DNA from: Tannerella sp.
Lineage (GTDB): Bacteria > Bacteroidota > Bacteroidia > Bacteroidales > Tannerellaceae
DNA: 37,888 nt
Direction: 5' to 3'
Assembly: GCA_031258835.1 (NCBI GenBank)
Contig: JAIRMH010000277.1
Coordinates: forward strand, 1 to 37,888
The position numbers and the translations under genes are program-made. The notes beneath the pieces were generated by a model. That model did no database searches, was not told the origin of the DNA, and saw only the letters and a program-made list of their open reading frames with translations. Positions 20,042 to 37,089 of this stretch are shown piece after piece (positions within the stretch are counted from its first letter, which is position 1; each line of letters begins with the position of its first letter).

Positions 20042-21994
20042 ATGAAAAATAGATTATTTATGAAACAAAAAAAATATTATACGCAATATCTCACATTCTA
20101 CATTCTACATTTTACATTCTACATTTCCCTTGTAGGTTGTACCGATGTTTTGGACGTTGCCCCCGACGGAAATCTGACAATGGAAGATGTCTATAAAGAC
20201 CCTGTGAAAGTGGAAGGCTTGCTGGCAAGCATTTATAGCGGATTGCCGCAAAAGGGATTCAGTTTTAGCGAATTCACACCCCTGTTCCCGGCTATCACCG
20301 ACGATGGCTGGGAAGCTAACGGCGAACATAGTGGACTTGCTACTTATCCGGTATATCATAGCACCAACACTGCCGAAAATCATTCGGTAGCCAATGCGCA
20401 TAACGGCTGGAATAAAAATTATTGGGCTGATTTTTATACTTCTATCCGCCTGTGTAATCAATTTTTGCAAAACGCCGATAAAATGACTTTTGCAAACACG
20501 GAAGCGAAAAACCGCATGATTGCCGAAGCGCATGTTTTACGCGCTTATTATTACACAGATTTGATAAAACTTTTCGGTGCTGTACCGATTATTGATGAAA
20601 TATTGCCTTTGGATTTCGACTTCTCCGTTATTGTTCGTGATCCCGTATATGATGTGGCTAAATTTATCGCCGACGACTGCGACATTGCTATTGCTACGGC
20701 AGAACTCCCCTGGCGTATAACGAACGGCGCAGTATTGCAGCCGAACGGCTCGCCGATGTCGCCTGCGGGAGATGCTTGCCGCGTTACCAAAGCCTTAGCG
20801 TATACACTGAAAGCTACGGCTATGCTCTTTGCAGCAAGTCCTTTGCACGACGGAAGCGGCGCGCATTGGGAAGAGGCCTATCAATTTAGTAAACAGGCCG
20901 TGAATGCCTTGAGGTATCCGAACAATTCATCCGGATATGAACTGTTTGGCATTTGCACGCAACCAAACATATTCGGTACAGGAGGCGCGGCAGCTTTTCA
21001 CGAAATGATGTGTAAGGTGGCCGACTACAGCCCCGCACCGCGCGACCGTGAAACGATTTATCAAACGGTTTCCGCGAACTGGGTAGGCTCGTTGCTGTGG
21101 CATGTTAACTATGTCGGCACTCAGCTGCCGGGCAATGCTTACGTGGGAACTACGCCTACGCAGGAATTGGTGGACGCCTTTGAAACAACAGACGGACAGC
21201 CGGTGCTTGACCTGGAAAATCCGTATAACGACGAAAGACATTTAAGTCCGAACTATAATCCTGCCAATACGCTTTACGACAGAGAGAATCCTTACAAAAA
21301 CCGCGACCCGCGCTTGCATGCTACCATGTTGGTGAACGGCGACATAATCGACTACCCAGGCGCTAAAAACCCGGTTGTGTCGATCGATATATATGTAGGC
21401 GATTCGTTACAGGGTGTGGAAAACGGATTGTTCGCCATAAGTACCGACCCGAAAGACCGAGGGCGTACCAAAACAGGTTATTTATTCCGCAAAATTATTA
21501 CGCCCGGTATGTCGGCTTCCGCCGGCCTGGGAAACCCCCACACGCCGACGTACAAGCATTACCGTTTTGCAGAATTACTGCTCGACCTGGCAGAAACGGC
21601 AAACGAAGCAGGACATACGGCCGATGCACTGGCGGCGCTTAACGAAGTGCGTGCTCGCGTGGGTATGCCGCCTGTGACGGAAACAGGTAAAGACCGCCTG
21701 CGCCTGCGCATCCACAACGAACGCCGCGTGGAATTTGCCTTTGAAGAAAACCGTTACTACGATCTGCGCCGGTGGAGCAAACCGAATGGGGATTTGGGGA
21801 AATATCAAAAATACCTGACGGCAATGTGGATTACCAAGCACGACGACGGCAGTTTCTCTTACGAACGTAAAAATATTTGGGACGCAGAACGCGGCGGATG
21901 GACTAACCGCGATTTGCTGCTGCCGATCCCGCTCTCCGAAGTCTCACGTATGGAACCGCTGACAGGCGTAAAGTGGCAAAATCCGGGATGGTGA
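20042..21994 (+). CDS. SusD/RagB-family lipoprotein (pair 1)
   Basis: 650 residues. An alternative ATG at 20060 gives a shorter signal peptide. The lipoprotein Cys is C33 (SLVGCTDVLD). The hydrophobic core before it (LTFYILHFTFYI) is encoded by a tandem heptanucleotide repeat at 20094-20128. SusD features are present: AEAHVLRAYYYTDLIKLFGAVPI, AKALAYTLKATAMLFAASPL in similar form, and the C-terminal LDLAETANEAGHTADALAALNEVRARVG with NERRVEFAFEENRYYDLRRW. It is the surface glycan-binding lid for the SusC protein encoded upstream. Its stop codon is followed three bases later by antisense heptad repeats. Confidence 0.95.
   Translation: MKNRLFMKQKKYYTQYLTFYILHFTFYISLVGCTDVLDVAPDGNLTMEDVYKDPVKVEGLLASIYSGLPQKGFSFSEFTPLFPAITDDGWEANGEHSGLATYPVYHSTNTAENHSVANAHNGWNKNYWADFYTSIRLCNQFLQNADKMTFANTEAKNRMIAEAHVLRAYYYTDLIKLFGAVPIIDEILPLDFDFSVIVRDPVYDVAKFIADDCDIAIATAELPWRITNGAVLQPNGSPMSPAGDACRVTKALAYTLKATAMLFAASPLHDGSGAHWEEAYQFSKQAVNALRYPNNSSGYELFGICTQPNIFGTGGAAAFHEMMCKVADYSPAPRDRETIYQTVSANWVGSLLWHVNYVGTQLPGNAYVGTTPTQELVDAFETTDGQPVLDLENPYNDERHLSPNYNPANTLYDRENPYKNRDPRLHATMLVNGDIIDYPGAKNPVVSIDIYVGDSLQGVENGLFAISTDPKDRGRTKTGYLFRKIITPGMSASAGLGNPHTPTYKHYRFAELLLDLAETANEAGHTADALAALNEVRARVGMPPVTETGKDRLRLRIHNERRVEFAFEENRYYDLRRWSKPNGDLGKYQKYLTAMWITKHDDGSFSYERKNIWDAERGGWTNRDLLLPIPLSEVSRMEPLTGVKWQNPGW
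20094..20128 (+). repeat. Heptanucleotide (CATTYTR) array inside the signal-peptide codons
   Basis: Five consecutive units: CATTCTA, CATTCTA, CATTTTA, CATTCTA and a variant last unit. They encode most of the hydrophobic segment of the SusD protein at 20042. Confidence 0.9.
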
Positions 21995-21996
21995 TA

Positions 21997-22010
21997 CAGA
22001 ATGTAGAATG
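21997..22010 (-). repeat. Antisense heptad repeats just after a stop codon
   Basis: CAGAATG followed by TAGAATG (reverse complement CATTCTA, CATTCTG), starting 3 bases after the SusD stop at 21994. Confidence 0.7.
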
Positions 22011-22078
22011 CATGTTATTATGAAAGAGAATATCATATCGAATAAGAGTCAAGAAAATTATTAAAAATAATATCATCA

Positions 22079-25078
22079 ATGAAAATCAGAATATTATCAC
22101 GAACATACAGCACTTTGCAGTTTGCATTTTGCACTAAATTGGCGTCATACTGCATCTTGCTTTTTGCATTTTGCACTTGTTTGTACGCGCAAAACAATAC
22201 GCCGGCGGACGTTGTCGCCGATTCGTTGTCGCTTGAAGACAACCGGACGACAGACGACCGCATCAGTATGGGATACTACGCTACACCGACCGCAGCAATA
22301 ACTGGCGCCATAGAAACGGTGTCGGGCGCAACGCTCGAAAAAACGCCTGTGGCGGACTTGGGACTGTCGCTTGCCGGACGCCTCAACGGACTGACGACTA
22401 TTGAACTGACGGGAAACCTTACCAATTCGTCCGTATACAAACTTATCCGCGGCGTGTCAACCGCTAACGGTACCGACCCGCTGGTGATTATCGACGGTGT
22501 TATATGCCCTACCTCGAATTGGGATTATCTTACCGCCCACGAAATCGAAAACATTTCTATCCTCAAAGACGGCTCGTCAACAGCCATTTATGGTATGCAG
22601 GGTGCGGGAGGAGCAATTATTATTACCACCAAACGCGGTTTTGAAGGAAATGCGAAAATAGAAGGGTATTTCGACCAGTCGTTTCAGCAGAATGTACGCC
22701 GACCCAAGTTTATTACTTCGGCGCAATATGTGAAAATGCGAAACCAGGCGGCATTCAACGACAGTTATACCCTTGAAAAAATCAACAAAGGCGAAACAGT
22801 AGGACTTTATACTCAATTCAGCGAAAGTGCGGTTGCCGGTTTTGAGCAGGGGAACAACCCGCTTTATCCGAACAACGACTGGTACTCCATGGCGGTAAAC
22901 GACTGGGCGCAAATGCAACGCGCAGGCACGAACATCATGGGCGGAAAGGAAAGCATAAAGTACTTCATCAACCTGAATTACATGCACCAGTCTTCGCCCT
23001 TGAAAGTAACACCCAATGATAAATTCGATGCTACGCCTTCGGTAAACAGCGTTAATTTCCGTTCCAATATCGACTTGCATCTCAACCGTTACTTGTCGGG
23101 ATTCCTGCGCTTGAGCGGGAATGTAAACCTGCAAAAAACCCCTGCCGATTATACTTCCAATGAAGCGGTTTATTCGACTGTTTTCGAACTTCCACCGACG
23201 ATGTATGGGCCACTGACCGGCGATGCTCCATTGTTCAATGCGGCAGGAACGCTATTGGAAGGAAGCAACCAGGTAGTGACGACAAACGCTGTGGATAAGC
23301 CTGTTTACGGCATTCTGAACCGTTCGGGGTATGACAAACTGCTGCAAACAAGTATTGTGGCGCAGTCAGGGTTGACATTGGACATGGAGTTCCTTACCAA
23401 AGGGTTGTCGCTTTCGGCATTGATGGCGTATCAAACGTATGCCAACAGTTCGACGGCCACCGTGCAAACTTTTAAAAGCTATGTGCGCGATCTTTCACAG
23501 GGCTACGAGACGCTTCGATTTATACAGAAATTAGACGATAGAAGCACCGACGACGTGCTGACTTACGGTAAGTATTCACAGTTTATGTACTCCCTGAACC
23601 TGTTTGCCCATGCGGATTATAACCGTACATTCGGCGACCACAGCATTGACGCGATGGCTTACATAACGTCTATGACACATGACAAAGAGATACCCCTGAA
23701 TGATGTTTCCGCTTATGGCTACACACGCATAGGCGCCTATATTTTACCTTACAAGCGATTGGATATGGGGGTAACGGCAACTTACGGCTACAAAAATCGT
23801 TATTTCCTGAAAGGAGACCTTGGTTATACCGGCTCCGACCAGTTTGCGCGCGGCTACCGCTATATCACAACGCCCGCCATTTCGGCTGCATGGGTTGCCT
23901 CGGAAGAAGATTTCCTGAAAGGACATGATATCCTTACTTACCTCAAACTGCGGGCGTCGTACGGCTTAAATGCCAACGACCAACTCGGCGGCTATCGCTT
24001 TATGTATCTCGACGAATACTCCTCCGACGGTACGGAAAAGGCGATGGGGAATCCCTTTGTTACCGCCGAAAAAGTCAAAAAGCAGAACTACGGCATCGAT
24101 TTAGGCTTGATAAAGGACTTTACGCTTCATTTCGACTATTACCGGGCGCATACCGGCAATATGTTGATAGACGGCGCTATTCCCATGCCTGTTTATGGGG
24201 GTATCCCCAGCCATCCGAAACTCAACGAAGGCAAAATGGAAAACCACGGCCTGGAAGCATCGCTTATGTACCAAAAGCAACTCAACAAGGATTTTTCATT
24301 GTTTGCCGGAGCTGGACTTGCCTTCAATAAAAACAAAGTGATTAGTATCAACGAAGTTCCGAAAGGCGAAGGCTACAAATATCAATATAGAACCGAAGGA
24401 TTCTCCGCAACACAATCTTGGGGATATTTGATTGATTACAGCAATGGCAACGGTTATATTAACACGATCGAAGAATTGGAAAAAGCAACCGAAATGTACA
24501 TAGGCGCCGCACCGCGTTTAGGTGACTTCATGTATCAGGACATCAGCGGCGACGGAAAAATAGATACAAAAGATTACGCTCCTATTGGATACGGCCGTAT
24601 TCCTGAAATTTACTACAATGTAAACCTGGGCTTTGAATACAAACGCTTTGAATTTAGTGCGCTTTTGCAAGGTACCGCCCGCTCATCGATGTTCATTAAC
24701 GACTTGGGCGTAGACGAGGCTTATAGTCGTGCATCCGACGGATATTATACCGATATACACATGAATGCGTGGACGCCTGATAATCATAACGCGGATTTCC
24801 CGGCGCTTTCCAACGCCACTTCCATTAGTCATCAGGCTAATGATTTCTTCGTTATGAATACGGCTTACTTGAAATTGCGTAATTTGGAAGTGGCTTATAC
24901 TTTGCCCGAAAATCTTTCACGCTTGGTAGCCGCGGAGAAAATCCGCATCGCTTTCAACGCGCAAAACCTTTTCACCTTCGACCATATCCGCACAAAATAT
25001 ATTGACCCGGAAACGGTAGATATGTCGGTTTTCCAGCCTTATCGGGTGTTGAATGTCGGTATAAAGGCAACGTTTTAG
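22079..25078 (+). CDS. SusC-family TonB-dependent transporter (pair 2), lacking the N-terminal beta-sandwich domain
   Basis: 999 residues. A long signal region (1-38, ending CTCLYAQ) is partly encoded by heptad repeats at 22111-22180. There is no STN and no recognisable carboxypeptidase-D-like domain; after a 30-residue linker the plug begins at about 75 (TGAIETVSGATLEKTPVADL; LVIIDGVICPTSNWDYLTA; NISILKDGSSTAIYG). The barrel ends LNVGIKATF. The stop codon TAG at 25076-25078 begins an antisense heptad array. It pairs with the SusD protein encoded next. Reduced N-terminal architecture and moderate similarity to the pair-1 transporter suggest an old duplication with specialisation. Confidence 0.93.
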   Translation: MKIRILSRTYSTLQFAFCTKLASYCILLFAFCTCLYAQNNTPADVVADSLSLEDNRTTDDRISMGYYATPTAAITGAIETVSGATLEKTPVADLGLSLAGRLNGLTTIELTGNLTNSSVYKLIRGVSTANGTDPLVIIDGVICPTSNWDYLTAHEIENISILKDGSSTAIYGMQGAGGAIIITTKRGFEGNAKIEGYFDQSFQQNVRRPKFITSAQYVKMRNQAAFNDSYTLEKINKGETVGLYTQFSESAVAGFEQGNNPLYPNNDWYSMAVNDWAQMQRAGTNIMGGKESIKYFINLNYMHQSSPLKVTPNDKFDATPSVNSVNFRSNIDLHLNRYLSGFLRLSGNVNLQKTPADYTSNEAVYSTVFELPPTMYGPLTGDAPLFNAAGTLLEGSNQVVTTNAVDKPVYGILNRSGYDKLLQTSIVAQSGLTLDMEFLTKGLSLSALMAYQTYANSSTATVQTFKSYVRDLSQGYETLRFIQKLDDRSTDDVLTYGKYSQFMYSLNLFAHADYNRTFGDHSIDAMAYITSMTHDKEIPLNDVSAYGYTRIGAYILPYKRLDMGVTATYGYKNRYFLKGDLGYTGSDQFARGYRYITTPAISAAWVASEEDFLKGHDILTYLKLRASYGLNANDQLGGYRFMYLDEYSSDGTEKAMGNPFVTAEKVKKQNYGIDLGLIKDFTLHFDYYRAHTGNMLIDGAIPMPVYGGIPSHPKLNEGKMENHGLEASLMYQKQLNKDFSLFAGAGLAFNKNKVISINEVPKGEGYKYQYRTEGFSATQSWGYLIDYSNGNGYINTIEELEKATEMYIGAAPRLGDFMYQDISGDGKIDTKDYAPIGYGRIPEIYYNVNLGFEYKRFEFSALLQGTARSSMFINDLGVDEAYSRASDGYYTDIHMNAWTPDNHNADFPALSNATSISHQANDFFVMNTAYLKLRNLEVAYTLPENLSRLVAAEKIRIAFNAQNLFTFDHIRTKYIDPETVDMSVFQPYRVLNVGIKATF
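22111..22180 (+). repeat. Degenerate CATTYTR heptads inside signal-peptide codons
   Basis: Two blocks keep a 7-bp period: CACTTTG-CAGTTTG-CATTTTG at 22111-22131, and CATCTTG-CTTTTTG-CATTTTG-CACTTGT at 22153-22180. A 21-bp stretch separates them. Confidence 0.8.
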
Positions 25079-25118
25079 AAATGTAAAATGGAAAATGTAG
25101 AATGGAAAATGTAGAATG
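25076..25118 (-). repeat. Antisense heptad array containing a susC stop codon
   Basis: Units of form YARAATG/GAAAATG: TAAAATG (25084), GAAAATG (25091), TAGAATG (25098), GAAAATG (25105), TAGAATG (25112). The TAG at 25076 that ends the transporter gene lies in the first degenerate unit. Confidence 0.9.
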
Positions 25119-25172
25119 TATAGTAATGGGACTATATCAAAATATGAAACAGTCAAAAATAAGTTTAAACAC

Positions 25173-27449
25173 ATGAAGAATAATAAATTAATACACAAAA
25201 TACCTTGCATTGTGCATCTTGCATTATGCATTATGTTTACGTCCTGCTCCGATTATTTGGATATGCCGTCGGACGGACGCGTGGAGTTGAAAGATGTTTT
25301 TGCGCAACGGAACACCATTGTCAATTATTATAACTCCCTGCTGGGAATAATACCGCAGACAGGCTTTACCTATACGAGCGGGTCAGATGACGCTCCTCTT
25401 TTGCCGCTTGCCGTTTTCTGCGACGAAGCCGAAGATGTGAACAACCAGGTCAACGGCTCGGCATACGACTGGTACACAGGCGCCGCATCCGCCCTTAGCT
25501 ATCCGCTAATGGGCAAATACAACAGCATAGACTGGAACTATTATTTCGCGGCTATCCGCCGCTGTAATACTTTCTTGCAGCAGATCCCCGACAACACGGC
25601 TACGGATATAAAAGACGTCGAAGTGGAGGGTATGACGGCCGAAGTGAGAACGCTTCGCGCTTTCGCCTACCTGCAACTGATGAAGCGCTACGGCAGCGTA
25701 CCGCTGACCGATACGCCCTTCGACGTTACGCACGATTATTCACAGGATAAACGCGCTTCGATAGAGGAAATCGCCGATTTTATCATTAGCGAGTGTGATG
25801 CAGCTCTGGAAACTCCCGAAAACGAAAATCAGGATATGGCCTTTCTTTGGATGCTCAGAAGCGAAGGACAACGCGGGAAAATACCGCGCGCTTTTGCTTT
25901 GGCGGTTAAATCGCAAACAGCACTCTATGCCGCAAGTCCGCTCTCTAACCCGGATAATAGCGGGAAATACACTTGGGCAAAAGCGACCGAAATTACCAAA
26001 GAGGCGCTCGACCAGTGTAGGAATCACGGGTACGAACTTTATAACCGCTCTATGAACGACGATATGAACGCTAAAACGCTGAATGTTTACGGCTATTATT
26101 TCATTCAACGTTCCGATCCGACCCGCGCACTCGATAAAGAAACCATCTTTGAATCGTCACTGCAAACAAGCATTTGGACGGATGCGGCCTTACCGATATG
26201 GCAAGGCGGGCTGACGGCAGGCGCTTGTCCTTCGCAGGAACTGGTGGATGCTTACGAAATGCAGGAAACGGGAGAACCGCCTGTTTTAGGCTATGAAAAT
26301 GGAGACCACCTGAAACCGATTATCAATCACGCTTCAGGTTACGACGAAAATGATCCTTACGAAGGTCGCGACCCCAGATTCTATACTTCTATTTATTACA
26401 ATGGAGCGTTGCGCAAATGGACACCGGGCGTTTCAAATTATCTCACACCTCAATTTTCGTCGAACAGCAGGTATTATAAATACTTGACACGGACAGGAAA
26501 CGCAGACGGCTCGGTGACTTTGACCACAATTGACAGGAACCCGTATATCGAAACAGGAAATATCGGCGGAAAAATCGAAGGAAATACCGCATATCTTATT
26601 TTTGAATACAAAAGCAATAATACGGTCAACGATGCTTATTTTTATGCATTGACGGATACAAAAAAATCGGAAGCGCTTACCATTCCGCAAGCCGACAGTT
26701 GGAGGGAATTTAGATATGACCTGGATGATTTCCGTCAAAATTTCAATTTCGGCGCGAGTTCAAACGACTACTACGGTTTTATTCCTTCGGAAAACACGGT
26801 CGGTTACGAAATTACAGTTCGTAATATGAGAATAGAAATAGCGACGCCACCCGTACCGTTGCAGTCGGTAGAAACTTTCATGGGTGGAAACTGCGAAATT
26901 TCGACAAACACCAGCAACATACGCAACACGCGCACCGGTTATTATATGCGCAAATTCAACAGCTCAGTGTCGGAAACAGGCTCTAACGATGACGGCTATT
27001 TCAAAATATTCCGCTTGGCGGAACTTTATTTGAATTTTGCCGAAGCTGCATATAATACCACAACTCCCGATACAAAATACGGCGACTTGTCGGCTCTTGA
27101 TGCGGTGAATGCCGTCCGCATCCGCGCCGGAATGCCCGCATTGCCTGCCGGAATGGATAAAGGCGCGTTCGAAAAGCGTTATCGCAACGAACGTCGGGTG
27201 GAACTGGCGTTTGAAGAACACCGATTCTTCGACGTGCGCCGCTGGAAAATTTTGAATGAAACCGATGGTGGCGTTACAGGTATGGAAATCACCAAAAAAG
27301 ATGACGGTACATTCAACTATAAACGTGTGAAAATGGTAAACCGCGCCACAGCCGCCGAAAAATATCTGCTGTTTCCCATTCCGCAAGCCGAAGTTGCTAA
27401 AATGTTTCAATACACAGGAACAAACTGGCAAAATCCGGGATGGGAATAG
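25173..27449 (+). CDS. SusD/RagB-family lipoprotein (pair 2) with a large insertion
   Basis: 758 residues from ATG 25173. A longer frame begins at 25116 inside a repeat array and adds a non-signal extension. The lipoprotein Cys is at about residue 25 (ALCIMFTSCSDYL); the hydrophobic core (CIVHLALCIM) is encoded by heptads at 25208-25235. The SusD N-terminal half is clear (AEVRTLRAFAYLQLMKRYGSVPL, AFALAVKSQTALYAASPL). So is the C-terminal signature (AELYLNFAEAAYNTT, AVNAVRIRAGMPALP, NERRVELAFEEHRFFDVRRW). Residues about 430-555 are an extra beta-rich segment (AYLIFEYKSNNTVND, WREFRYDLDDFR, YEITVRNMRIEIA) not found in ordinary SusD proteins of 500-650 residues. It resembles a small carbohydrate-binding sandwich. 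Confidence 0.93.
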   Translation: MKNNKLIHKIPCIVHLALCIMFTSCSDYLDMPSDGRVELKDVFAQRNTIVNYYNSLLGIIPQTGFTYTSGSDDAPLLPLAVFCDEAEDVNNQVNGSAYDWYTGAASALSYPLMGKYNSIDWNYYFAAIRRCNTFLQQIPDNTATDIKDVEVEGMTAEVRTLRAFAYLQLMKRYGSVPLTDTPFDVTHDYSQDKRASIEEIADFIISECDAALETPENENQDMAFLWMLRSEGQRGKIPRAFALAVKSQTALYAASPLSNPDNSGKYTWAKATEITKEALDQCRNHGYELYNRSMNDDMNAKTLNVYGYYFIQRSDPTRALDKETIFESSLQTSIWTDAALPIWQGGLTAGACPSQELVDAYEMQETGEPPVLGYENGDHLKPIINHASGYDENDPYEGRDPRFYTSIYYNGALRKWTPGVSNYLTPQFSSNSRYYKYLTRTGNADGSVTLTTIDRNPYIETGNIGGKIEGNTAYLIFEYKSNNTVNDAYFYALTDTKKSEALTIPQADSWREFRYDLDDFRQNFNFGASSNDYYGFIPSENTVGYEITVRNMRIEIATPPVPLQSVETFMGGNCEISTNTSNIRNTRTGYYMRKFNSSVSETGSNDDGYFKIFRLAELYLNFAEAAYNTTTPDTKYGDLSALDAVNAVRIRAGMPALPAGMDKGAFEKRYRNERRVELAFEEHRFFDVRRWKILNETDGGVTGMEITKKDDGTFNYKRVKMVNRATAAEKYLLFPIPQAEVAKMFQYTGTNWQNPGWE
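25208..25235 (+). repeat. Heptad array in signal-peptide codons
   Basis: CATTGTG, CATCTTG, CATTATG, CATTATG: four consecutive 7-bp units, more degenerate than the arrays at 20094 and 35290. Confidence 0.75.
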
Positions 27450-27469
27450 GAAATGTAGAATGTAGAATT
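27450..27469 (-). repeat. Antisense heptad repeats directly after the susD stop
   Basis: The TAG stop at 27447-27449 is followed at once by a degenerate GAAATG, then TAGAATG (27456-27462) and TAGAATT (27463-27469). Confidence 0.75.
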
Positions 27470-27512: not shown

Positions 27513-28892
27513 ATGAAAAATAAAAGATTAAGATACGGCACTGGTTGCATTTTGCTCGTCGCATTTTGTATTTTACTTTCATTTCCGTCATGTAAAGAAG
27601 ATAAAGACGTGGTAGAAGAAGAAGAGGAAGAGGAGGTGGTGGCTACTGTGCGCGTAACCGGCGTAACATTAGACATAAACGACTTATCACTCGCATCCGA
27701 CTCTACGGTACAACTTGCCGCTACGATAATGCCGGAAAATGCCGATTCTCAAGGAATAACATGGCTTTCGACCAGTGAAACCGTTGCCTCGGTGAGCCAA
27801 ACAGGACTTGTTACCGCTGTAGCCGAAGGTGCAACATCAATTGTTGTTAAAACTGTCGAGGGCGAATTTACCGATACATGCACAGTAACGGTTTTTGTTG
27901 AAAACAAATACAAACTTATCGCCGACCTCGACCCTTCCGCCACTCCTGAACTGCTTGACCCTACGCCGGCAGACGGCGAGTATTGGGAACACAAAAGTTC
28001 TTTCAAACTGTGGGAACACAAGGAAGGCTATGGACACGGCGTCAAAATAGTTATTGTGGGAGAATCTTTCAGCCGCGAGGACAATAAAAACAACGGCGTT
28101 TATGAAACATGGTGTAAAAAAATGGCTTTGGAATTATTGAAAAATGACATTATCCGTAATTTCCGCAACTATATAGATATTTATGTAGCCGTGGCGGAGT
28201 CGCCTGTAAGCGTCATCAATGGAACAACTCCCGGCTTTTTCGGCACAACAACTACGATCGGAACTAATTTCGACAAGGCGAACGCGTTTACCGCAGAGGC
28301 AATTCCCGAATTGGCAGGCGTTCTCAACCGTTCTTATATTCTCATAGCCAATGGAATGATGGGCGGATGGGCTAACTTCGGATGGCCTGCAGGCAATGGC
28401 GGAAGTGCGTGGTGGAGTACGGCAATGGCCAATGGTCGTGATAACGATATAGGCGCCTATTGGATGATGCACGAATTTATTGGACATGGTTTCGCTTCGC
28501 TTGCTGATGAATATCCGGGCGCCACTGGCTCGTATGATTTCACTTGGCAAAGAAGCGGAATGGCTTGCAACGTTTCAAACACTAACGACCCTGACAAACT
28601 ACCATGGAAACGATTTGTCGGACTTGCCGGCTACCGAGAAGTAGGAGTATTTCCGGTAGAAAGCGGAGTATGGAAATCCGAATCACATTCTATTATGGTG
28701 GACGATTCTCAAGGTTTTTATTACAATGCACAGTCGCGCTGGCTAATTTATAAGCACATTTACGATTGTTCAAAATTTCTCGACAACCAAAGCGGCAACA
28801 GCACCAATAAACCGAAAAAGTATGAGTCTGGCGAAGAAGCAGCTTTGTTTGAGGCATTTTTGGAATTTGACAAACTATACAATGTGAAATAA
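27513..28892 (+). CDS. Lipoprotein with Ig-like (BIG2) domain and M64-type (IgA peptidase) metallopeptidase domain
   Basis: 459 residues from ATG 27513; an upstream in-frame ATG (27477) is not signal-like. The lipoprotein Cys is C27 (LLSFPSCKEDKD), with an acidic export-type stretch after it. An acidic linker (EEEEEEE) follows. A BIG2 Ig-like domain lies at about 44-130 (VTGVTLDINDLSLASDSTVQL, ITWLSTSETVASVSQTGLVTAV). The M64-type peptidase domain starts at about 175 (VKIVIVGESFSREDNKN; YIDIYVAVAESPVSVI). The zinc motif is HEFIGHGFASLADEY (H320, E321, H325). M64 enzymes cleave host or other glycoproteins at the cell surface. In this glycan locus it could expose glycans by cutting the protein backbone, which is inference. 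Confidence 0.85.
   Translation: MKNKRLRYGTGCILLVAFCILLSFPSCKEDKDVVEEEEEEEVVATVRVTGVTLDINDLSLASDSTVQLAATIMPENADSQGITWLSTSETVASVSQTGLVTAVAEGATSIVVKTVEGEFTDTCTVTVFVENKYKLIADLDPSATPELLDPTPADGEYWEHKSSFKLWEHKEGYGHGVKIVIVGESFSREDNKNNGVYETWCKKMALELLKNDIIRNFRNYIDIYVAVAESPVSVINGTTPGFFGTTTTIGTNFDKANAFTAEAIPELAGVLNRSYILIANGMMGGWANFGWPAGNGGSAWWSTAMANGRDNDIGAYWMMHEFIGHGFASLADEYPGATGSYDFTWQRSGMACNVSNTNDPDKLPWKRFVGLAGYREVGVFPVESGVWKSESHSIMVDDSQGFYYNAQSRWLIYKHIYDCSKFLDNQSGNSTNKPKKYESGEEAALFEAFLEFDKLYNVK
27548..27575 (+). repeat. Degenerate heptads in signal-peptide codons
   Basis: CATTTTG (27548), CTCGTCG, CATTTTG (27562), TATTTTA (27569) in register at 7 bp, encoding the hydrophobic core of the M64 lipoprotein. 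Confidence 0.7.
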
Positions 28893-29000: not shown

Positions 29001-29057
29001 GGAGTTGACATAACGCTAAGGGATGATAAGAAAGATAAACGTATAACTAAATAGTCT

Positions 29058-30290
29058 ATGAAATACTTATTCTGCATTTTACATTTTGCAATCTGCATTT
29101 TCTTATGTTCTTTCATCGAAATGCCGAATACGGTTCCCGCTGGGGAAAATCCCGACGAGTTCGATGAGTTCGGCATACGAAACGACAAACTTCGCCTCAT
29201 TCAAGATACCACCCGCGGCGGAGCTATCTCGTATATTTCACTTGCCGGCAACAAACGGAATCTGGTAAACATTGCCGACGAAGGACGTTATATTCAGCAA
29301 TCCTATTATGCCGGGAACTCGGTGAACAGGCAGAAGGACGGACAATCGCCTTCATGGTCGCCGTGGTCGTGGAATCCCATTCAATGTGGTGACTACGCCC
29401 GTCATCGCGCCCAAATTCTCGAAACCCGCCAGACAGCCGACAGTACATACATAAAGTGTATCCCCATGCAATGGGATATGAACAACATGCCTGCCGAGGC
29501 GATTATGGAACAATGGACTTCGCTCTGCGACAATGTAGTGAGCGTACGATGCCGCTTAACCTGCCATCGCACCGACGACATTTACGGCGAGGGCGTCCTG
29601 AACGACCAGGAAATTCCGGCGGTGTATCCGATTTCTGCACTCAACAATCTCTATTCTTATTTTGGCGATGCACCTTTTACCGGCGCGGCGATTGTAAAAA
29701 CCGAAGTCATCCAGCTCGAAAGTGGCTTTTGGGGAAGGTATATGACCAACAACGGCAATTTCCCTGCCGAAAAATGGATGGCTTTTGTCGACAACAATGG
29801 TTGGGGCCTTGGCGTTTATTCGCCGCAGGCAACCCAGTTTTTGGCAGGTCGTTACGGAAGGGCGGGAGGAGAATCAACATCGCCTTATACCGGCTATATT
29901 GCGCCCTTGAGGGTTGAAGCATTGATGAAAAACTATGTGTCAGAATACAGTTATTATTTAATTGTCGGAACTTTAGACGAAATCCGTGCGAAAATATACC
30001 AAATTCACAATTCGCTTACCACTTCAAATACAACTGTGAACAAAGACGAAAACAAGTTGAAAATTTGCCCGAATCCGGCAAACGCACAGATTCAAATTAC
30101 AAATTGCGAATTACGAAAAGGGGATAAAATTGAAATTTTTGATTTGGCAGGCAATTTGCGAGAATCATTATCAGTTGCCAATTATCAATTATCTTTTAAT
30201 TTTGACATTTCAAGATTGTCACAAGGGATGTACTTCGTATCGGTAAATTCAGCCAAAAGAAAATCAGCCACTTATTTTATAAAAAAATGA
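29058..30290 (+). CDS. Secreted protein of unknown function with T9SS sorting domain
   Basis: 410 residues. The signal peptide (YLFCILHFAICIFLCSF) is encoded by heptad repeats. The middle ~300 residues are a beta-rich domain with motifs RGGAISYISLAGNKRNLVNI, GRYIQQSYYAG, WSPWSWNPIQCGDYARH and FAEKW-like NFPAEKWMAFVDNNGWGLGVYSP. The composition suggests a galactose-mutarotase-like or lyase-type sandwich, but no family is recognised with confidence. The last ~75 residues are a T9SS type A sorting domain (LKICPNPANAQIQI, KIEIFDLAGNLRESL, GMYFVSVNSAKRKSATYFIKK). The protein should reach the cell surface or medium. Position next to glycosidase genes hints at a carbohydrate-active role. Confidence 0.6.
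   Translation: MKYLFCILHFAICIFLCSFIEMPNTVPAGENPDEFDEFGIRNDKLRLIQDTTRGGAISYISLAGNKRNLVNIADEGRYIQQSYYAGNSVNRQKDGQSPSWSPWSWNPIQCGDYARHRAQILETRQTADSTYIKCIPMQWDMNNMPAEAIMEQWTSLCDNVVSVRCRLTCHRTDDIYGEGVLNDQEIPAVYPISALNNLYSYFGDAPFTGAAIVKTEVIQLESGFWGRYMTNNGNFPAEKWMAFVDNNGWGLGVYSPQATQFLAGRYGRAGGESTSPYTGYIAPLRVEALMKNYVSEYSYYLIVGTLDEIRAKIYQIHNSLTTSNTTVNKDENKLKICPNPANAQIQITNCELRKGDKIEIFDLAGNLRESLSVANYQLSFNFDISRLSQGMYFVSVNSAKRKSATYFIKK
29068..29102 (+). repeat. Heptad array in signal-peptide codons
   Basis: TATTCTG, CATTTTA, CATTTTG, CAATCTG, CATTTTC: five units at 7-bp spacing starting 10 bases after the ATG. Confidence 0.88.
30093..30120 (+). repeat. Second-type heptads (CRAATTR) within the T9SS sorting domain codons
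   Basis: CAAATTA, CAAATTG, CGAATTA, CGAAAAG run in tandem at 7-bp period inside the coding region. Confidence 0.65.
30172..30199 (+). repeat. Second heptad block within the T9SS sorting domain codons
   Basis: CAGTTGC, CAATTAT, CAATTAT, CTTTTAA at 7-bp period, 52 bases after the previous block. Confidence 0.6.
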
Positions 30291-30295
30291 AACGC

Positions 30296-30438: not shown

Positions 30439-33400
30439 ATGAGAAACTTTAAATTTTCAATTATCTCGCTTTTTGTTGCAGGAATTATGTCCGCATTTTG
30501 TGGCGCACAACAAAAAACAGTTCGTTTCGACGAGTTAAAAGCAAATTTTAAAACGCCGCCTGCCGATGTGCGCGTAGGCGTTTACTGGTATTGGATGAAC
30601 GATAATATTTCTGTCGAAGGCGTTCAAAAAGACTTGGAAGCGATGAAAGCCGCAGGCATTACCAAAGCCTTTATCGGCAACATTGGCGGAGAAACGCAAT
30701 TTCCACAGGGGAAAGTGAAAATTTTTACCGACCAGTGGTGGGAAGTGATTCATGCCGCACTGAAAAAAGCCTCCGAATTGAATATTGAAATCGGCATGTT
30801 CAACTGTCCGGGCTGGTCGCAGAGCGGCGGGCCATGGATTAAATCCTCGCAGGCAATGCGTTACTTAGCTTTTACCGATACAACTGTTGCAGGAAATCAA
30901 CATTTTTCAGGAAGATTAATTCCCGCGGAAAAAGATTTCCAAGACGTGAAAGTGTTGGCGTTCCCGACAAATAACGAACCGGACGCTGTAACTCAAATCG
31001 GCCTCGTTCCTGCTCATTCAAAAGCCGAAATCGTGCTTTCGTTACCAAAACCTGAAAAAATACGCACACTCACAATTCTTCCTAACAGTTATTTCTTTGG
31101 CGAATGTGAATTGCAGGCAAAAACAGGAACAGAATATCAAACAATTAAGAAATTTGCAGTTGACCGCTCAAACAATATGCTCAACGTTGGCTGGGATAAA
31201 CTGGCAAAAGTGCAAATCACGTTTCCCGCTGTCGAGGCACAGGATTTTCGCCTCATCTTCGATAACAAACGGCACGTAGACGCTCATTTTTTGCTTACCC
31301 TTACCGCTACACAAAGCATTGAACGTTATCCTGAAAAATCATTGGCAAAAATGTTCCAAACGCCCCTTCCGCAGTGGGATTCTTATATATGGGAAAAGGA
31401 AAGCGCAGACACGGCTCTTTCCGTTAACCCTACAAACGTAATTGATATTTCGGACAAATTAGCCGCAGACGGTACGATAACCTGGGACATCCCTGAAGGC
31501 AATTGGGTGATTATGCGCACAGGAATGGCGCCCACAGGCATAATGAACGCACCCGCGTCGCCCGAAGGCAAGGGACTTGAAGTGGATAAAATGAACAAGG
31601 ACTATGTTGCTTACCATTTCGACCGTTTTATGGGCGAAGTGCTGCGCCGTATTCCCGAAGCCGATCGTAAATCGCTGAAATATGTAATTCAAGACAGCTA
31701 CGAAATGGGCGGACAAAATATGACCGACGGCATTCTCGAAGAATTTCAAAAACGCTACGGTTACGACCCCGCGCCATATTTACCTGCTTTACAGGGCTTT
31801 TCAATCGGAAGTCCCGATCAATCGGACAGGTTCCTGTGGGATTTGCGCCGCCTGATTGCCGATAAAATTTCCTATGACTTTGTAGGCGGCTTTGCCGAAG
31901 TGAGCCACAAGCACGGTTTAAAAGTATGGCTCGAAAACTACGGACACTGGGGCTTCCCAGGCGAATTTCTGCAATACGGCGGCCAATCTGACGGTATTGG
32001 CGGCGAATTTTGGGCCGCACAGGGCAACGACCGCTACGAACCGCGCATTGCTGCCTCCTGCGGACACATTTACAACAAAAACGTAATTTCCGCCGAATCG
32101 TTTACAAGCGGCGGCGTTGGCTACAAAATATCTCCCAGGGATTTGAAATTCCTGCTCGACTGGTCGATGACGGAAGGAATTAACGAAACGTTACTGCATG
32201 TCTATATCCAACAAGCCTACGATAACGAATTTCCAGGTATTGATGCATGGTTCGGAACGGAATTTAACCGCCACAACACTTGGTTTTCACAAATCGATTT
32301 GTTTACCGATTACATCCGCCGGTCTAATTATATGCTCCGTCAGGGCTTACATGTAGCCGATGTAGCTTATTTCATAGGCGAAGACGTTCCGAAAATGGTG
32401 GGAATCCGCCAGCCCGAAATCCCGCGCGGCTACGATTTCGACTATATTAACGCCGAAGTAATTGAGCGTGATTTGCAGGTGAAAGACGGTTTGCTGACAT
32501 TGCCTCACGGCGCTTCGTACCGTGTTCTTGTATTGCCGCCGCAAACCACCATGCGTCCCGCGCTTTTGAAAAAAATAGAAAAACTTGTTGCGCAAGGTGC
32601 AGTGATTGTCGGCACACAAACGCCCGACCGCTCGCCGAGTTTGGAAAATTATCCCAAAGCAGACGAAGAAGTGAAGAAAATTGCAAATAAAATGTGGGGA
32701 AACGCTGGGGCGGGAAATTTTTCGTCCGGTAAAAAAATCCAATACGGCAAAGGCCGAATTTTCCACAATACAACATTAGAAGAAGTTTTTGCTGAATTGA
32801 ACCTGAAACCCGATTTCCTGACGGAAGGAGTACCCGACAGAGAGGTCTCCAACACTGTCTTTGACAAAACCGTGGTTAGTAAACTTCCTTCAGTTCTCTA
32901 TAACCACCGCACCGACGGTGATCGCGAGATTTTTTTCGTTGCCAATCAAACCGAAAAACCAATCGAAATCAACGCCGCATTCCGCGTGCAGGGCAGGCAA
33001 CCTGAACTTTGGAACGCAACGGACGGCTCAGTACGTTTGCTGCCCGACTTTTCGGAAAAAGACGGGATTACAACGATTCCGTTGAAACTCGAAAAATTGG
33101 AAGGATATTTTGTTGTATTTAATGCAAAATCGAAAAATTCCGGAGTATCGAATTTGGCTGCAAATTTCCCAGCGCCTAAGAAAAGCGCCGATATTTCTAC
33201 CAACTGGACAGTTACATTTACCGCGAACAACATTCTCCGCGGCCTCGAAAATGTCACATTTACCGAATTAAAATCGTGGGCGGAAAATGAAAATCCGCAA
33301 ATCAAATATTATTCGGGAACAGCAGTATATTCCAAGAAATTCAATTATCAAATTACCCCTAAATCCTCTGAAGGAGACAGTAAGGTTTTTGTCGAATTTG

Positions 33401-33684
33401 AAAATGTCGCGGATATGGCAAAAGTGAAAATAAACGGACAATATGCAGGTGGCTGTTGGACTGCGCCTTACCGCGTAAATATCAGTGGATTGCTGAAAAA
33501 AGGCGAAAATTTGATAGAAGTAGAAGTCGTCAATAAATGGGGTAACCGTTTGATTGGCGATTCTTTCCTGCCTTTCGAACAGCGAAAAGTGCGCTCATAC
33601 AGTACGCAGTGGAAGCCCGACATGCCTTTGCAACCATCGGGGTTGATCGGACAGGTGAAGATTGTAGAATATCGTAATTTGTAA
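30439..33684 (+). CDS. GH106-like glycoside hydrolase (probable alpha-L-rhamnosidase)
   Basis: 1081 residues. The signal peptide ends at about residue 24 (FVAGIMSAFCGAQQ). The N-terminal segment PPADVRVGVYWYWMNDNISVEGVQ then LEAMKAAGITKAFIGNIGG and CPGWSQSGGPWIKSSQAMRYLAF are hallmarks of GH106-type enzymes. A (beta/alpha)8-type catalytic region follows (YVIQDSYEMGGQNMTDGILEEF; KVWLENYGHWGFPGEF; ISAESFTSGGVGY). The C-terminus has a GH2-like sugar-binding sandwich (VEFENVADMAKVKINGQYAGG; GENLIEVEVVNKWGNRLIG). GH106 enzymes remove terminal rhamnose from plant or bacterial glycans in the periplasm or at the surface. Family placement is by recalled motifs; substrate is not proven. Confidence 0.78.
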   Translation: MRNFKFSIISLFVAGIMSAFCGAQQKTVRFDELKANFKTPPADVRVGVYWYWMNDNISVEGVQKDLEAMKAAGITKAFIGNIGGETQFPQGKVKIFTDQWWEVIHAALKKASELNIEIGMFNCPGWSQSGGPWIKSSQAMRYLAFTDTTVAGNQHFSGRLIPAEKDFQDVKVLAFPTNNEPDAVTQIGLVPAHSKAEIVLSLPKPEKIRTLTILPNSYFFGECELQAKTGTEYQTIKKFAVDRSNNMLNVGWDKLAKVQITFPAVEAQDFRLIFDNKRHVDAHFLLTLTATQSIERYPEKSLAKMFQTPLPQWDSYIWEKESADTALSVNPTNVIDISDKLAADGTITWDIPEGNWVIMRTGMAPTGIMNAPASPEGKGLEVDKMNKDYVAYHFDRFMGEVLRRIPEADRKSLKYVIQDSYEMGGQNMTDGILEEFQKRYGYDPAPYLPALQGFSIGSPDQSDRFLWDLRRLIADKISYDFVGGFAEVSHKHGLKVWLENYGHWGFPGEFLQYGGQSDGIGGEFWAAQGNDRYEPRIAASCGHIYNKNVISAESFTSGGVGYKISPRDLKFLLDWSMTEGINETLLHVYIQQAYDNEFPGIDAWFGTEFNRHNTWFSQIDLFTDYIRRSNYMLRQGLHVADVAYFIGEDVPKMVGIRQPEIPRGYDFDYINAEVIERDLQVKDGLLTLPHGASYRVLVLPPQTTMRPALLKKIEKLVAQGAVIVGTQTPDRSPSLENYPKADEEVKKIANKMWGNAGAGNFSSGKKIQYGKGRIFHNTTLEEVFAELNLKPDFLTEGVPDREVSNTVFDKTVVSKLPSVLYNHRTDGDREIFFVANQTEKPIEINAAFRVQGRQPELWNATDGSVRLLPDFSEKDGITTIPLKLEKLEGYFVVFNAKSKNSGVSNLAANFPAPKKSADISTNWTVTFTANNILRGLENVTFTELKSWAENENPQIKYYSGTAVYSKKFNYQITPKSSEGDSKVFVEFENVADMAKVKINGQYAGGCWTAPYRVNISGLLKKGENLIEVEVVNKWGNRLIGDSFLPFEQRKVRSYSTQWKPDMPLQPSGLIGQVKIVEYRNL

Positions 33685-33778: not shown

Positions 33779-33786
33779 TATATTTG
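33779..33786 (+). promoter_or_regulatory. Candidate -7 element before the GH30 gene
   Basis: TATATTTG fits TAnnTTTG; the -33 position holds TGTG, not TTTG. It allows separate transcription of the last two glycosidase genes. Confidence 0.4.
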
Positions 33787-33816
33787 CATTTTACTGTTCG
33801 TGTAAAATGATTTTTT
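33787..33816 (+). promoter_or_regulatory. Short hairpin with T-run in the GH30 leader
   Basis: CATTTTAC (33787-33794) pairs with GTAAAATG (33802-33809), followed by ATTTTTTA. It could be a weak attenuator, and its arms also match the heptad motif in opposite orientations. Confidence 0.35.
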
Positions 33817-33847: not shown

Positions 33848-35272
33848 ATGATGAAACGCATATTATTTGTTTTTTTTATTGCCTCAGCAATCACTTCCTG
33901 CGACAAAAAAATGGTTGCAGAGTGGGTCGCAACAACTCCCGACGCTCCGTGGCAAACACAGAACACGAGTGGGATTAAACTGGTGAAAACCGCTTCCGCT
34001 GATGTGGAAATCCTGACCGGCAGCACATTGCAAACTATTGACGGTTTCGGTGCATGCTTCAATGAACTGGGTTGGACTTCTCTCGCCCTTTTGCCCGACG
34101 CGGAACGCGAAACGGTTTTCAAAGAACTGTTTACCGCTGAAGGAGCGAATTTCACCATTTGCCGTATGCCTGTCGGCGCAAATGATTTTTCGCGCGACTG
34201 GTACTCCTACAACGAAACGGACGGCGATTTTGAGATGAAAAATTTCAGCATTGAAAACGACAGGGAAACGCTGATACCGTTTATCAAATCGGCGCTAAAG
34301 TATAATCCTGGTCTGACGCTCTGGGCTTCGCCGTGGAGTCCGCCAACGTGGATGAAAGAAAATAAATTTTATGCTTGCGCCGTAATGGATACGACTTTTT
34401 TCGACGCCCGTTACAACAACCACATAAAACCCGAACAAGTGCGCCGCGAAGGAGTAAATATGTTTATAACGGAAGATAAATATTTTGCCGCCTATGCGCT
34501 TTACTTTCAGAAATTTATTGAAGCCTACCGCTCCGAAGACATCAAGATCTCGATGGTGATGCCACAAAACGAGTTTAATTCCTGCCAGCCGTTCCCAAGT
34601 TGTACATGGTTGGCAGCTGAATTAGCCGAATTTACAGGAAAACACCTCGTTCCGACGATGAAAAAACTCAATGTTGAAGTGGCCTTCGGCACTATGGAAC
34701 GTCCCAATCCTGCACTCGTTGATACCATTCTTAATGCCGAAGGCGGCGACCAAATTACGGGAGTTGGTTTTCAGTGGGCCGGCCGCGATGCTCTTCCAAG
34801 TATTCACGACCGTTATCCGAATTTGAAACTTTACCAAACCGAACAGGAGTGCGGCAATGGTCGTAACGACTGGAATGGCTGCGCCTATTCGTGGAAGTTG
34901 ATGAAGCACTATTTTACTTACGGCACAAACGTATACGATTACTGGAATATCTCGCTGCTCGAAGGCGGCATGAGCCGTTGGGGATGGACTCAAAACTCGC
35001 TCGTGACGGTAAATGAACAAGATAAAACCTGCCGTTACACTTACGAATATTATTTGCTCAAGCATTTCAGCCATTATGTTTTGCCCGGAGCACAAAGGCT
35101 CAAAACAGCAGGAAATTTCGATAATATACTATCATTCAAAAATAAGAACGGGAAAATCACAGTCGTATTTTATAACGCCGAACAAACAGAAACAACAAAA
35201 ACCGTAAAAGTCGGCAAAAATGTTTTTGAATTAAAACTTAAACCTCAATCAATCAATACAATAATATTATAA
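33848..35272 (+). CDS. GH30-family glycoside hydrolase lipoprotein
   Basis: 474 residues; ATG at 33848 or the adjacent 33851. The lipoprotein signal ends at Cys18 (FFIASAITSCDKK). The GH30 catalytic barrel starts with TIDGFGACFNELGW, and ICRMPVGANDFSRDWYSYNE is a typical strand. WASPWSPPTWMKEN follows. The acid/base Glu is E242 in MPQNEFNS. The nucleophile is E332 or E334 in YQTEQECGNG. A small beta-sandwich closes the protein (ILSFKNKNGKITVVFYNAE). GH30 members cleave beta-1,6-glucans, xylans, or glucosylceramides; the subfamily cannot be decided here. The stop codon overlaps the start of the next gene by one base (TAATG), indicating coupled translation. Confidence 0.9.
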   Translation: MMKRILFVFFIASAITSCDKKMVAEWVATTPDAPWQTQNTSGIKLVKTASADVEILTGSTLQTIDGFGACFNELGWTSLALLPDAERETVFKELFTAEGANFTICRMPVGANDFSRDWYSYNETDGDFEMKNFSIENDRETLIPFIKSALKYNPGLTLWASPWSPPTWMKENKFYACAVMDTTFFDARYNNHIKPEQVRREGVNMFITEDKYFAAYALYFQKFIEAYRSEDIKISMVMPQNEFNSCQPFPSCTWLAAELAEFTGKHLVPTMKKLNVEVAFGTMERPNPALVDTILNAEGGDQITGVGFQWAGRDALPSIHDRYPNLKLYQTEQECGNGRNDWNGCAYSWKLMKHYFTYGTNVYDYWNISLLEGGMSRWGWTQNSLVTVNEQDKTCRYTYEYYLLKHFSHYVLPGAQRLKTAGNFDNILSFKNKNGKITVVFYNAEQTETTKTVKVGKNVFELKLKPQSINTIIL

Positions 35273-37089
35273 TGAAACGATTATTTTCCCATTCTACATT
35301 CTACATTCTACAATTTACATTTTGCATTTTACATTTTACATTTTGCATTTTCCCGCTTTCCATTTCCGCACAGCAGCAAGTCGATGGCTATCCTCTGGCA
35401 AATTTCGGCCTGACGATAAATGCTTCTGCCGACGGCTCAATGTTCGGCGATGTGTTGCAAAACACAGGCGTTCTCGGTGAGTGGCTGATAGACAGAGGCG
35501 GCGTGCAATTTTCCATTGAAAAACAAGGCAAAATCCATTCTTTTGCCGGTTTTGCAGAGAAAAACGTGGAAAGGAAATTCCCTTTTGTACGCGGCAGTTA
35601 TGCCCAATCGCCGTTGATTCAATCGGAAATGAAAACGCTGGCTTTCTGTCCGATGGCAGTGGAAGACACCGAAACGTCGGCTTTGCAGGTGATTATGCTT
35701 GAATTAATTTTAAAAAATCAAGGTAAAAAGACGGATGAGTTTTCAATATCCATTCTTCCCAATTCAGTTGCTTTCGACAATAATTGCGCGTTAAACGCCT
35801 CCGAAAAATTTATTTTAAAAGGCAATAAAATTTCTATTCCGCTAAAACTATTACCCAACGAAGAAAAAACACTCCGTCTTTCGATCGCTTTTTATGACGC
35901 CGAATGGATTACGGCAAAAAACTATTCCACGGCAAAAGAAATTGCAAATTTTGCTTACGAAAATTGGGATAATCTGCTTGTCAAAACCCAACAATTTGAG
36001 AATCTGCTTCCTGAAACCGACGATGCGGAACTCGACGAATATCTGCGTTGGTACATGATTCCAGCCGTTTCACTTACGCGCATTACCAAAAACAATGAAG
36101 TGCTGACAATGGGTTACCGCGAACTCAATCAACGTGACAGTTACTGGACTTCGTGGCTGCATTTGGTTTTTTATAAGGATCTGGAAAAGAAAATGATAGA
36201 GGAAAGCATCGAGTGGATGCAGCCTTCGGGCAAAATCCCCACCACCATTTTACCGTTGATTGAGCGCGAAGACGATTTGGATATAAACGCATTCTTCATT
36301 CTCAGGGCTTGGCGCTACTTCCAATATCACCATGATAAAGAAGCGTTGGCGGCATGGTGGATGCCTTTGCAAAAAGCGATGGATTGGCTCATTTCGCGCG
36401 ATACAAATAACAATGGAGTGCCTGCGCAAATTTCATTCTGGGGCGACTGGAAAGATGTTCCGGGCATTGAAGGTAGAATTTATTCTCCCTTTTCGGTGAT
36501 GACCTACTTAGCTTCACTGGATAAAATGGTGCAAGCGGCTTACTGGCTTAATGATTTGCAAGCGGCTGAAAAATACAAACTTGCCGGGCGGAAAGCATCC
36601 GATTTCCTGAATAAACCTACAAGCGACGGCGGTATGTGGAACGGCAATTATTACTGCCAGATTTGGAACGACGGCAGCGTGAACGAACGCCTGCTGCAAG
36701 ACCAGATGATTGGCGTGTTTTTCGATGTCGTACCGCAAGACCGTGCTGAGAAAATCGTAGAATCGCTTAATAAACAAAGTCTTACCAAGTGGGGCATTGC
36801 CGAAACGACACCTTATTATCCTGACGGATGGGGTTATAAGGAGGCCACTTACCACAACGGCGGCGTGTGGCCATGGCTGAGCTTTATGGACTGCTGGGCG
36901 AGGCTTAAAATGGGACGAAGGGACGAGGCGATTTCGCTTATCAAGCGCGTAGCAAAAGCCGATTTAAAAGATTCGGGCGACTGGTCACCAAACGAACATA
37001 TCAACAGCCTGACCGGTAAAAACCTCGGCTATCATATTCAAGGATGGAACGCAGGATTGTTCGGATTGGTATATTTTGGATTGAAATGA
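35272..37089 (+). CDS. (alpha/alpha)6-barrel glycosidase (six-hairpin, glucosidase-like)
   Basis: 605 residues. The signal peptide (about 1-36, ending SISAQQ) is almost entirely encoded by the longest heptad array of the window. The N-terminal ~200 residues form a beta-sandwich. The C-terminal ~370 residues are a helical barrel with MGYRELNQRDSYWTSWLHLVFY, WMQPSGKIPTTILP, DINAFFILRAWRYFQYHHD, SFWGDWKDVPG and YHNGGVWPWLSF. The last is typical of glycogen-debranching/GH63/GH94-type six-hairpin glycosidases. The acidic residues in RELNQRD and GDW are candidates for catalysis. No exact GH family could be assigned. It follows the GH30 gene with a one-base overlap, so the two enzymes probably act on the same glycan. 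Confidence 0.75.
   Translation: MKRLFSHSTFYILQFTFCILHFTFCIFPLSISAQQQVDGYPLANFGLTINASADGSMFGDVLQNTGVLGEWLIDRGGVQFSIEKQGKIHSFAGFAEKNVERKFPFVRGSYAQSPLIQSEMKTLAFCPMAVEDTETSALQVIMLELILKNQGKKTDEFSISILPNSVAFDNNCALNASEKFILKGNKISIPLKLLPNEEKTLRLSIAFYDAEWITAKNYSTAKEIANFAYENWDNLLVKTQQFENLLPETDDAELDEYLRWYMIPAVSLTRITKNNEVLTMGYRELNQRDSYWTSWLHLVFYKDLEKKMIEESIEWMQPSGKIPTTILPLIEREDDLDINAFFILRAWRYFQYHHDKEALAAWWMPLQKAMDWLISRDTNNNGVPAQISFWGDWKDVPGIEGRIYSPFSVMTYLASLDKMVQAAYWLNDLQAAEKYKLAGRKASDFLNKPTSDGGMWNGNYYCQIWNDGSVNERLLQDQMIGVFFDVVPQDRAEKIVESLNKQSLTKWGIAETTPYYPDGWGYKEATYHNGGVWPWLSFMDCWARLKMGRRDEAISLIKRVAKADLKDSGDWSPNEHINSLTGKNLGYHIQGWNAGLFGLVYFGLK
35290..35352 (+). repeat. Nine-unit CATTYTR heptad array encoding a signal peptide
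   Basis: Units in order: CATTCTA three times, CAATTTA, CATTTTG, CATTTTA twice, CATTTTG, CATTTTC. It is uninterrupted for 63 bp, giving the seven-residue cycle F-Y/C-I-L-H/Q-F-T in the protein. Confidence 0.95.

Follow-up and report, generated by a model that had tools for sequence, protein, structure and literature searches.

Heptanucleotide repeats as the putative hydrophobic core of six signal peptides in a Tannerella polysaccharide-utilisation locus

In the opa genes of Neisseria a tandem repeat encodes the hydrophobic core of the leader peptide, and in the HMW1A gene of Haemophilus the repeats lie in the promoter, outside the coding sequence, and hence form no signal peptide (SP). The opa repeats are CTCTT pentamers in the leader-coding region (PMC3745409, PMC5354566), and the 7-bp repeats of HMW1A have been linked to phase variation of this surface protein (PMC8262952). 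Heptanucleotide direct repeats of the type TAACTGA occur in Beggiatoaceae, Cyanobacteria and Bacteroidetes (MacGregor 2015, PMC4679880), and GGGAATC and GGGGA(C/T)T heptamers of Xanthomonas and Nostoc are found mostly within 50 bp of the ends of open reading frames (ORFs), with an orientation bias (PMC4692102). The present study focused on a heptamer, CATTYTR, that matches none of these published units (TAACTGA, GGGAATC, GGGGAYT), and for which a literature search by repeat sequence string and by subject terms found no paper. It was analysed in a stretch of 37,888 nt (the window), which is one entire contig (JAIRMH010000277.1) of a 4.2 Mb, 86% complete draft genome of Tannerella sp. (GCA_031258835.1), and in which arrays of the unit make up the hydrophobic core (h-region) of six predicted SPs.

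Arrays and signal peptides of six genes

Domain searches of the proteins identified positions 20042-37089 of the window as a polysaccharide-utilisation locus. When an array was defined as three CATTYTR units with at least 17 of 21 matches, 25 places were found on the plus strand of the window, all in the SP-coding regions of six genes (within about the first 35 codons), and seven on the minus strand, all at three stop codons or gene boundaries. There was no such place elsewhere in the window on either strand, and ten dinucleotide shuffles of it gave 0-1 place at 17/21 (one strand). A two-unit search allowing two mismatches returned 39 matches in the window against 5.9 expected; six of them were not part of the SP or stop-codon arrays, and four of these six fell in the first 20 kb. 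The original prediction, made from the sequence of the window, had described the arrays as the hydrophobic cores of six SPs, ranging from near-perfect to degenerate and absent from the first 20 kb, and each of these points was upheld, the last at the 17/21 threshold. Tandem Repeats Finder missed the arrays at 27548 and 29068 and listed period-7 arrays at 20093-20125, 22110-22135, 22151-22175, 25206-25235 and 35290-35351. Under a strict criterion of three exact units, two window arrays were retained, both of them in SPs. A Fisher test of SP cases in the window (6 of 9) versus other genomes (7 of 203) was given no weight, because it combined loosely and strictly defined arrays and was based on an earlier count of SPs.

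All genes of the locus named here are on the plus strand. The first specifies a SusD-like lipoprotein with SusD domains (SusD1; 20042-21994), and its array (20094..20128) is near-perfect, with four perfect units and one decayed (...LTFYILHFTFYISLVGC), forming an uninterrupted long tract. It is followed by a SusC-like receptor with a Plug domain (22079-25078), the array of which falls into two blocks (22104..22180); by a second protein that is SusD-like by domain search (SusD2; 25173-27449), with variant units such as CATTGTG, CATCTTG and CATTATG (25208..25235); and by a Big_2 and M64-like lipoprotein (27513-28892; array 27548..27582). The arrays of these three genes, at 22111, 25208 and 27548, are all degenerate and none of them is a long uninterrupted tract. 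The array of the gene for a Por_Secre_tail protein (29058-30290) consists of five units with mild decay (29068..29102), and that of a GH116/GH78-like enzyme (35272-37089) is near-perfect and partly uninterrupted, with seven perfect units out of nine (35290..35352).

Judged by eye, each of the six proteins has the layout of a Sec or lipoprotein SP (basic n-region, h-region, and a lipobox or A-X-A-like site), and in each gene the array occupies the h-region between the basic start and the lipobox or cleavage-like site (LVGC, FTSC, FPSC, LYA-Q and ISA-Q; the site of the 29058 gene is not clear). A check of the frames agreed with the earlier statement that CATTYTR is open in all three and always gives the same cycle, H-F/S-T/A-F-Y/C-I-L; its reverse complement has a stop in every frame if the unit ends in A. 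A total of 11,260 of the 16,384 heptamers are stop-free when repeated, and the four CATTYTR variants rank at the 76th-96th hydropathy percentile among them; the reading is hydrophobic, though not extreme.

Orthologues with and without arrays

A DNA search with the locus gave matches in 39 of 41 same-genus genomes (own included), mostly at 65-75% identity, and 20 stretches were taken from these relatives. They include the N-termini of three orthologues of SusD1, eight of SusC, eight of SusD2 and five of the GH116-like enzyme (some starts being uncertain), and all of these have ordinary SPs without arrays. Across the 125,457 bases of the 20 stretches there were three places at 17/21, none higher and none in those SPs. 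Since the same-genus orthologues of four genes have ordinary SPs, the arrays appear to have taken over SPs that already existed. Of 20 relatives for which peak hydropathy was measured, ten were above the window protein and ten below, the values being 2.85-2.98 versus 1.85 for SusD1, 1.92-3.01 versus 2.74 for SusC, 1.66-2.81 versus 2.65 for SusD2, and 1.41-3.28 versus 2.28 for the GH116-like enzyme. For these four genes, relatives are thus as hydrophobic without a 7-bp period, the very observation that the original prediction had named as counting against it, and its suggestion that the repeat supplies ready-made SPs is not supported, as the SPs came first. Sequence comparison indicates instead that the arrays replaced already working SPs, with no general gain in hydropathy. 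The gaps on either side of SusC measure about 49 and 15 bp in one relative (G086) versus 84 and 94 bp in the window.

A closer match was found in Prevotellaceae bacterium Cd354_bin66, which has the whole locus on three contigs, with DNA 74-81% identical over the main pieces. The best array scores of its SPs are 21/21 each for SusD1, SusD2, the M64-like and the GH116-like proteins, and 18/21 (weak) for a Por-like gene. Its GH116-like orthologue has 75% protein identity, and the next two genes likewise have array SPs. The SusC SP of Cd354_bin66 has no array (best score 14) and resembles those of the same-genus genomes. Two genes of the locus serve as internal negative controls, GH106 (30439..33684) and GH30 (33848..35272), both of which have ordinary SPs that are array-free in the window and in Cd354_bin66 and align between them without gaps.

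As the same SPs carry arrays in Cd354_bin66, most of the arrays are probably older than the split of the two genomes and were kept while their units turned over, along with the SP lengths, which differ between the two species. The SusC array would be either a later gain here or a loss in Cd354_bin66. Given that arrays were apparently kept since before the split through such turnover of units and length, the array SPs very probably function in export.

Array-bearing SPs occur in at least six genes on three contigs of Cd354_bin66, which is very rich in arrays generally, with 366 exact three-unit matches (12 for the reversed pattern) as compared to eight in the genome of the window. Positions 2253-2648 of one of its loci (L391) hold an ORF of 132 aa that has a post-stop reverse array on one side and the array SP of SusD1 on the other, and that by eye is like the S23/four-helix-bundle proteins of rRNA intervening sequences.

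The repeat at gene borders and in other genomes

Three arrays of the window are in reverse orientation, unreported in the original prediction, and start at, or no more than 3 bp past, the stop codons ending at 21994, 25078 and 27449. The first (21997..22017, minus strand) begins 2 bp past the SusD1 stop and roughly 85-100 bp 5' of the SusC SP array. The second (25077..25125, minus strand), of about six units, runs from the SusC stop, roughly 80-90 bp 5' of the SusD2 SP array, and the third (27449..27469, minus strand) is at the SusD2 stop, about 80 bp 5' of the M64 SP array. Reverse arrays follow three of eight stop codons in the window, and the order of reverse then forward array is seen at three of the six SP genes. 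Those after SusC and SusD2 are common to both genomes, the Cd354_bin66 arrays being placed at the same stop and about 20 bp past the same stop, respectively; Cd354_bin66 also has them after the stops of GH106, GH30 and a preceding SusC gene, giving five of seven stops examined. That an SP array was copied from the adjoining intergenic array is unsupported for the window copies, the two differing in unit types.

Allowing three mismatches, the Tannerella genome has 66 places with the repeat, 24 of them in this contig (0.9% of the genome); with one mismatch there are 18, a clear excess over the two found for the reversed pattern. Ten other heptamer arrays of the genome, some with related units, were inspected, of which nine are intergenic and one is antisense at a gene end, and none is an SP. 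They account for 32 of the 42 places outside the window, and one of the other ten was viewed. Arrays of [AG]ATTYTR and CATTCAA are present between genes (L329-L335), several of them taking up the whole gap that separates a stop from the following start codon.

Exact three-unit arrays were found in two of 123 genomes of the family and 12 of 395 of the phylum, and exact four-unit arrays in nine of 393 of the order, with the window's own counted in each case. At least 119 stretches with arrays come from named genomes of Clostridia, Bacteroidetes, Planctomycetes, Cyanobacteria and others. Among the matches listed, 205 distinct arrays of other genomes were taken, several of them coming from a single locus or genome, with loci L020-L049 left out, and with five Cd354_bin66 loci included (L115, L120, L143, L151, L157); 203 were classified by position, two in short loci being dropped. 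Intergenic arrays made up 60% of these (16% for random positions) and those in ORF interiors 13% (62% for random positions), and within 50 bp past a stop there were 46 of 203 in reverse orientation versus eight of 203 in forward. Gene models were longest ORFs, so that for some of the 23 arrays classed as N-terminal and sense the true start is downstream of the array (e.g., L066). The CATTYTR/YARAATG heptamers are scattered repeats that are for the most part intergenic, frequently just past a stop codon and frequently in inverted pairs. In another genome of the phylum set (G670; L296 and others), three-unit matches number 86 and make up about 20 arrays, one of which has 34 units; most of these arrays lie between genes, and none was considered to be an SP. 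Loci L243, L245 and L253 have heptamer arrays, in both orientations, inside ORFs of 457-492 aa, without a break of frame.

By eye, 11 of the 205 arrays are SPs (L062, L063, L072, L080, L083, L094, L109, L121 and three in L157), and a targeted search added cases in G169 and G472. One orthologous SP has an array in both G383 and G291, the downstream DNA being 82% identical. With SPs at none of the ten own-genome arrays and 11 of the 205 listed, the idea that the repeat is tied to secreted genes could not be sustained. The motif ATGAAR followed by an array was found at nine places in eight of 393 genomes (two being the window's own), compared to three places in three of 393 for a scrambled start; four of the seven foreign places lead into ORFs of 208 aa or more, the other three into short ORFs, so an enrichment behind start codons is suggestive only.

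The arrangement of the pairs is strongly ordered: a reverse partner lies 20-350 bp to the 5' side of 66 of the 205 arrays and to the 3' side of three, and flanks shuffled by single bases give 0.75 and 0.1 partners, respectively. No account of this fixed order was found in the accessible parts of the literature searched. The 55 distinct inverted pairs of other genomes have a median spacer of 39 bp. The arms of one pair are 0.75 identical at variable sites versus 0.48 between pairs, a difference that the unit preference of each genome could explain, as genomes are mixed in this comparison, and the in-register unit order of the arms is slightly above that of within-pair shuffles (10 of 1000 reach it). 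Inspection of loci L050-L168 and L238-L305, across phyla, showed inverted pairs almost only with the reverse array 5' of the forward array and with spacers of 6-134 bp. It could be speculated that CATTYTR is one arm of a cross-phylum inverted-pair element, 5'-[YARAATG]n-spacer-[CATTYTR]n-3', located at gene borders, the forward arm of which can be captured and kept as an SP core; this is a tentative proposal that we think has less than an even chance of being correct. The YARAATG strand of the unit carries a start codon. If such an element exists, the same DNA would be acceptable both in intergenic regions and within export signals, and a repeat-rich genome such as Cd354_bin66 would be rewriting the export signals of whole operons.

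An inverted-repeat-like unit that differs from the heptamers (CATTGCGGGCTTGCGACCCGG...CCGCAATG) occupies 28917-29002, in the gap 5' of the 29058 gene. About 75 bp between GH106 and GH30 (33717-33793) are found again on three further contigs of the genome, with 90-94% identity. The stretch 37174-37667 has copies, about 79-93% identical, on other contigs both here and in other genomes, and the ORF in it appears by eye like the end of an insertion-sequence transposase.

Origin of the arrays and comparison with known systems

The explanation that we consider likely is that intergenic heptamers took over the h-regions of existing SPs in one locus and entered into lasting, working use there. The heptamers would have invaded one polysaccharide-utilisation locus in the lineage of the window genome and Cd354_bin66, with reverse copies settling past stop codons and forward copies at the 5' ends of secreted-protein genes, where their stop-free hydrophobic reading would have replaced the h-region and left in place the basic start, along with the lipobox or cleavage site. 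Only the stop-free strand would survive within coding sequence, and the h-region presumably tolerates changes of sequence and length; the route by which the copies arrived, and selection as the filter, we infer. The original interpretation is supported in part: a repeat at the DNA level encodes six SP cores, at least four of them shared with Cd354_bin66, and there are separate cases in other genomes; its ready-made SPs and its link to secreted genes found no support, and its tuning of export needs correcting.

The last of these, slippage-driven variation of export, was considered in silico. In all six genes, adding or removing one or two units leaves truncated products of 14-78 aa, and a change of three units keeps the frame and restores nearly full length. 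As a change of one or two units shifts the frame of the mature protein, slippage would act as an off/on switch and not as a means of tuning export. This raises the alternative that the arrays are contingency loci, kept as phase-variation switches as in gonococcal opa. Their genes specify surface glycan-uptake proteins, arrays persist in Cd354_bin66, and the near-perfect ones at 20094 and 35290 could slip. However, three of the six SP arrays are degenerate and one is mildly decayed, making them poor substrates for slippage, the 60 nt upstream contain no ATG from which the other frames stay open past 16 aa, and three of the nine window arrays are non-coding, so that a switching role is rather unlikely. 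The non-coding arrays could instead have a role in regulation, if, within the mRNA, the post-stop reverse array were to pair with the following gene's SP array and so gate translation across the junction. Predicted folds do pair them at the three SP arrays that have a reverse array roughly 80-100 bp upstream, two of these three junctions have reverse arrays in Cd354_bin66 too, and the order of the pairs (66 versus three) is general, but folding energies at the three junctions are no better than those of dinucleotide shuffles (z -0.92 to +0.98) and the other three SP arrays of the window have no reverse partner. Paired regulatory hairpins are therefore improbable.

Least credible of all, and very improbable, is convergence, whereby period-7 strings would have arisen by chance through selection for hydrophobic, AT-rich codons, no common DNA repeat being involved. 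Two-unit matches do occur within apparent membrane segments elsewhere in the genome (L184, L186). Yet the locus has three reverse arrays in its non-coding DNA, hardly any arrays arise in shuffled sequence, the array-free SPs of the window and its relatives show no 7-bp period, and the recurring His codon (CAT) is unexpected under selection for hydrophobicity. Convergence is effectively refuted at 20094, 29068 and 35290, and is conceivable only at 27548, the weakest array, the orthologue of which scores 21/21.

Several points weigh against the takeover of existing SPs by intergenic heptamers in a common lineage. No array-free same-genus N-terminus was obtained for the 27513 and 29058 genes, and the N-terminus of the Cd354_bin66 Por-like gene does not align to the 29058 protein. 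With three mismatches allowed, the 66 places in the Tannerella genome are barely above the 58 found for the reversed pattern, and the two array-bearing genomes differ greatly in array number (eight versus 366 exact three-unit matches). Parallel gain in both may have occurred for single genes. Because the locus matches Cd354_bin66 more closely, wrong binning of the contig is kept as a possibility, although an unlikely one, its GC content (0.457) being inside the range of other sampled contigs of the genome (0.365-0.507).

If the takeover is accepted, the locus would represent a rare and lasting reuse of repetitive DNA as the export signal of surface-protein genes. It offers a clean natural case of repetitive DNA turned protein segment, with array-free orthologues on one side and an array-keeping relative on the other, and it suggests that the entry of a repeat into genes can depend on its orientation and frame-independence.

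Among the systems described, opa is similar in having, as far as the available text of the sources goes, a non-triplet tandem repeat in the leader-coding region of several surface-protein genes of one genome. It differs in that the CATTYTR unit has seven bases, is an intergenic repeat elsewhere, and is found in glycan-uptake genes of a Bacteroidetes-group genome, where half of the arrays are degenerate and switching is predicted in silico. The TAACTGA repeats are likewise scattered across phyla, mostly intergenic at gene borders, with one strand stopping and the other open, and an equivalent reading-frame argument has been made for them, but the unit is another one and the term 'signal peptide' is absent from the main text of that paper (PMC4679880). 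The GGGAATC and GGGGA(C/T)T heptamers, unlike CATTYTR, are G-rich and quadruplex-forming, and the accessible text of PMC4692102 does not discuss a hydrophobic reading. A non-triplet repeat in the SP-coding regions of several surface-protein genes is therefore already known from opa, as are intergenic heptamers with a frame bias; what is new is an intergenic heptamer family as the SP core of six genes in one locus, at least four of which are kept in a second genome, and the fixed order of its inverted pairs.

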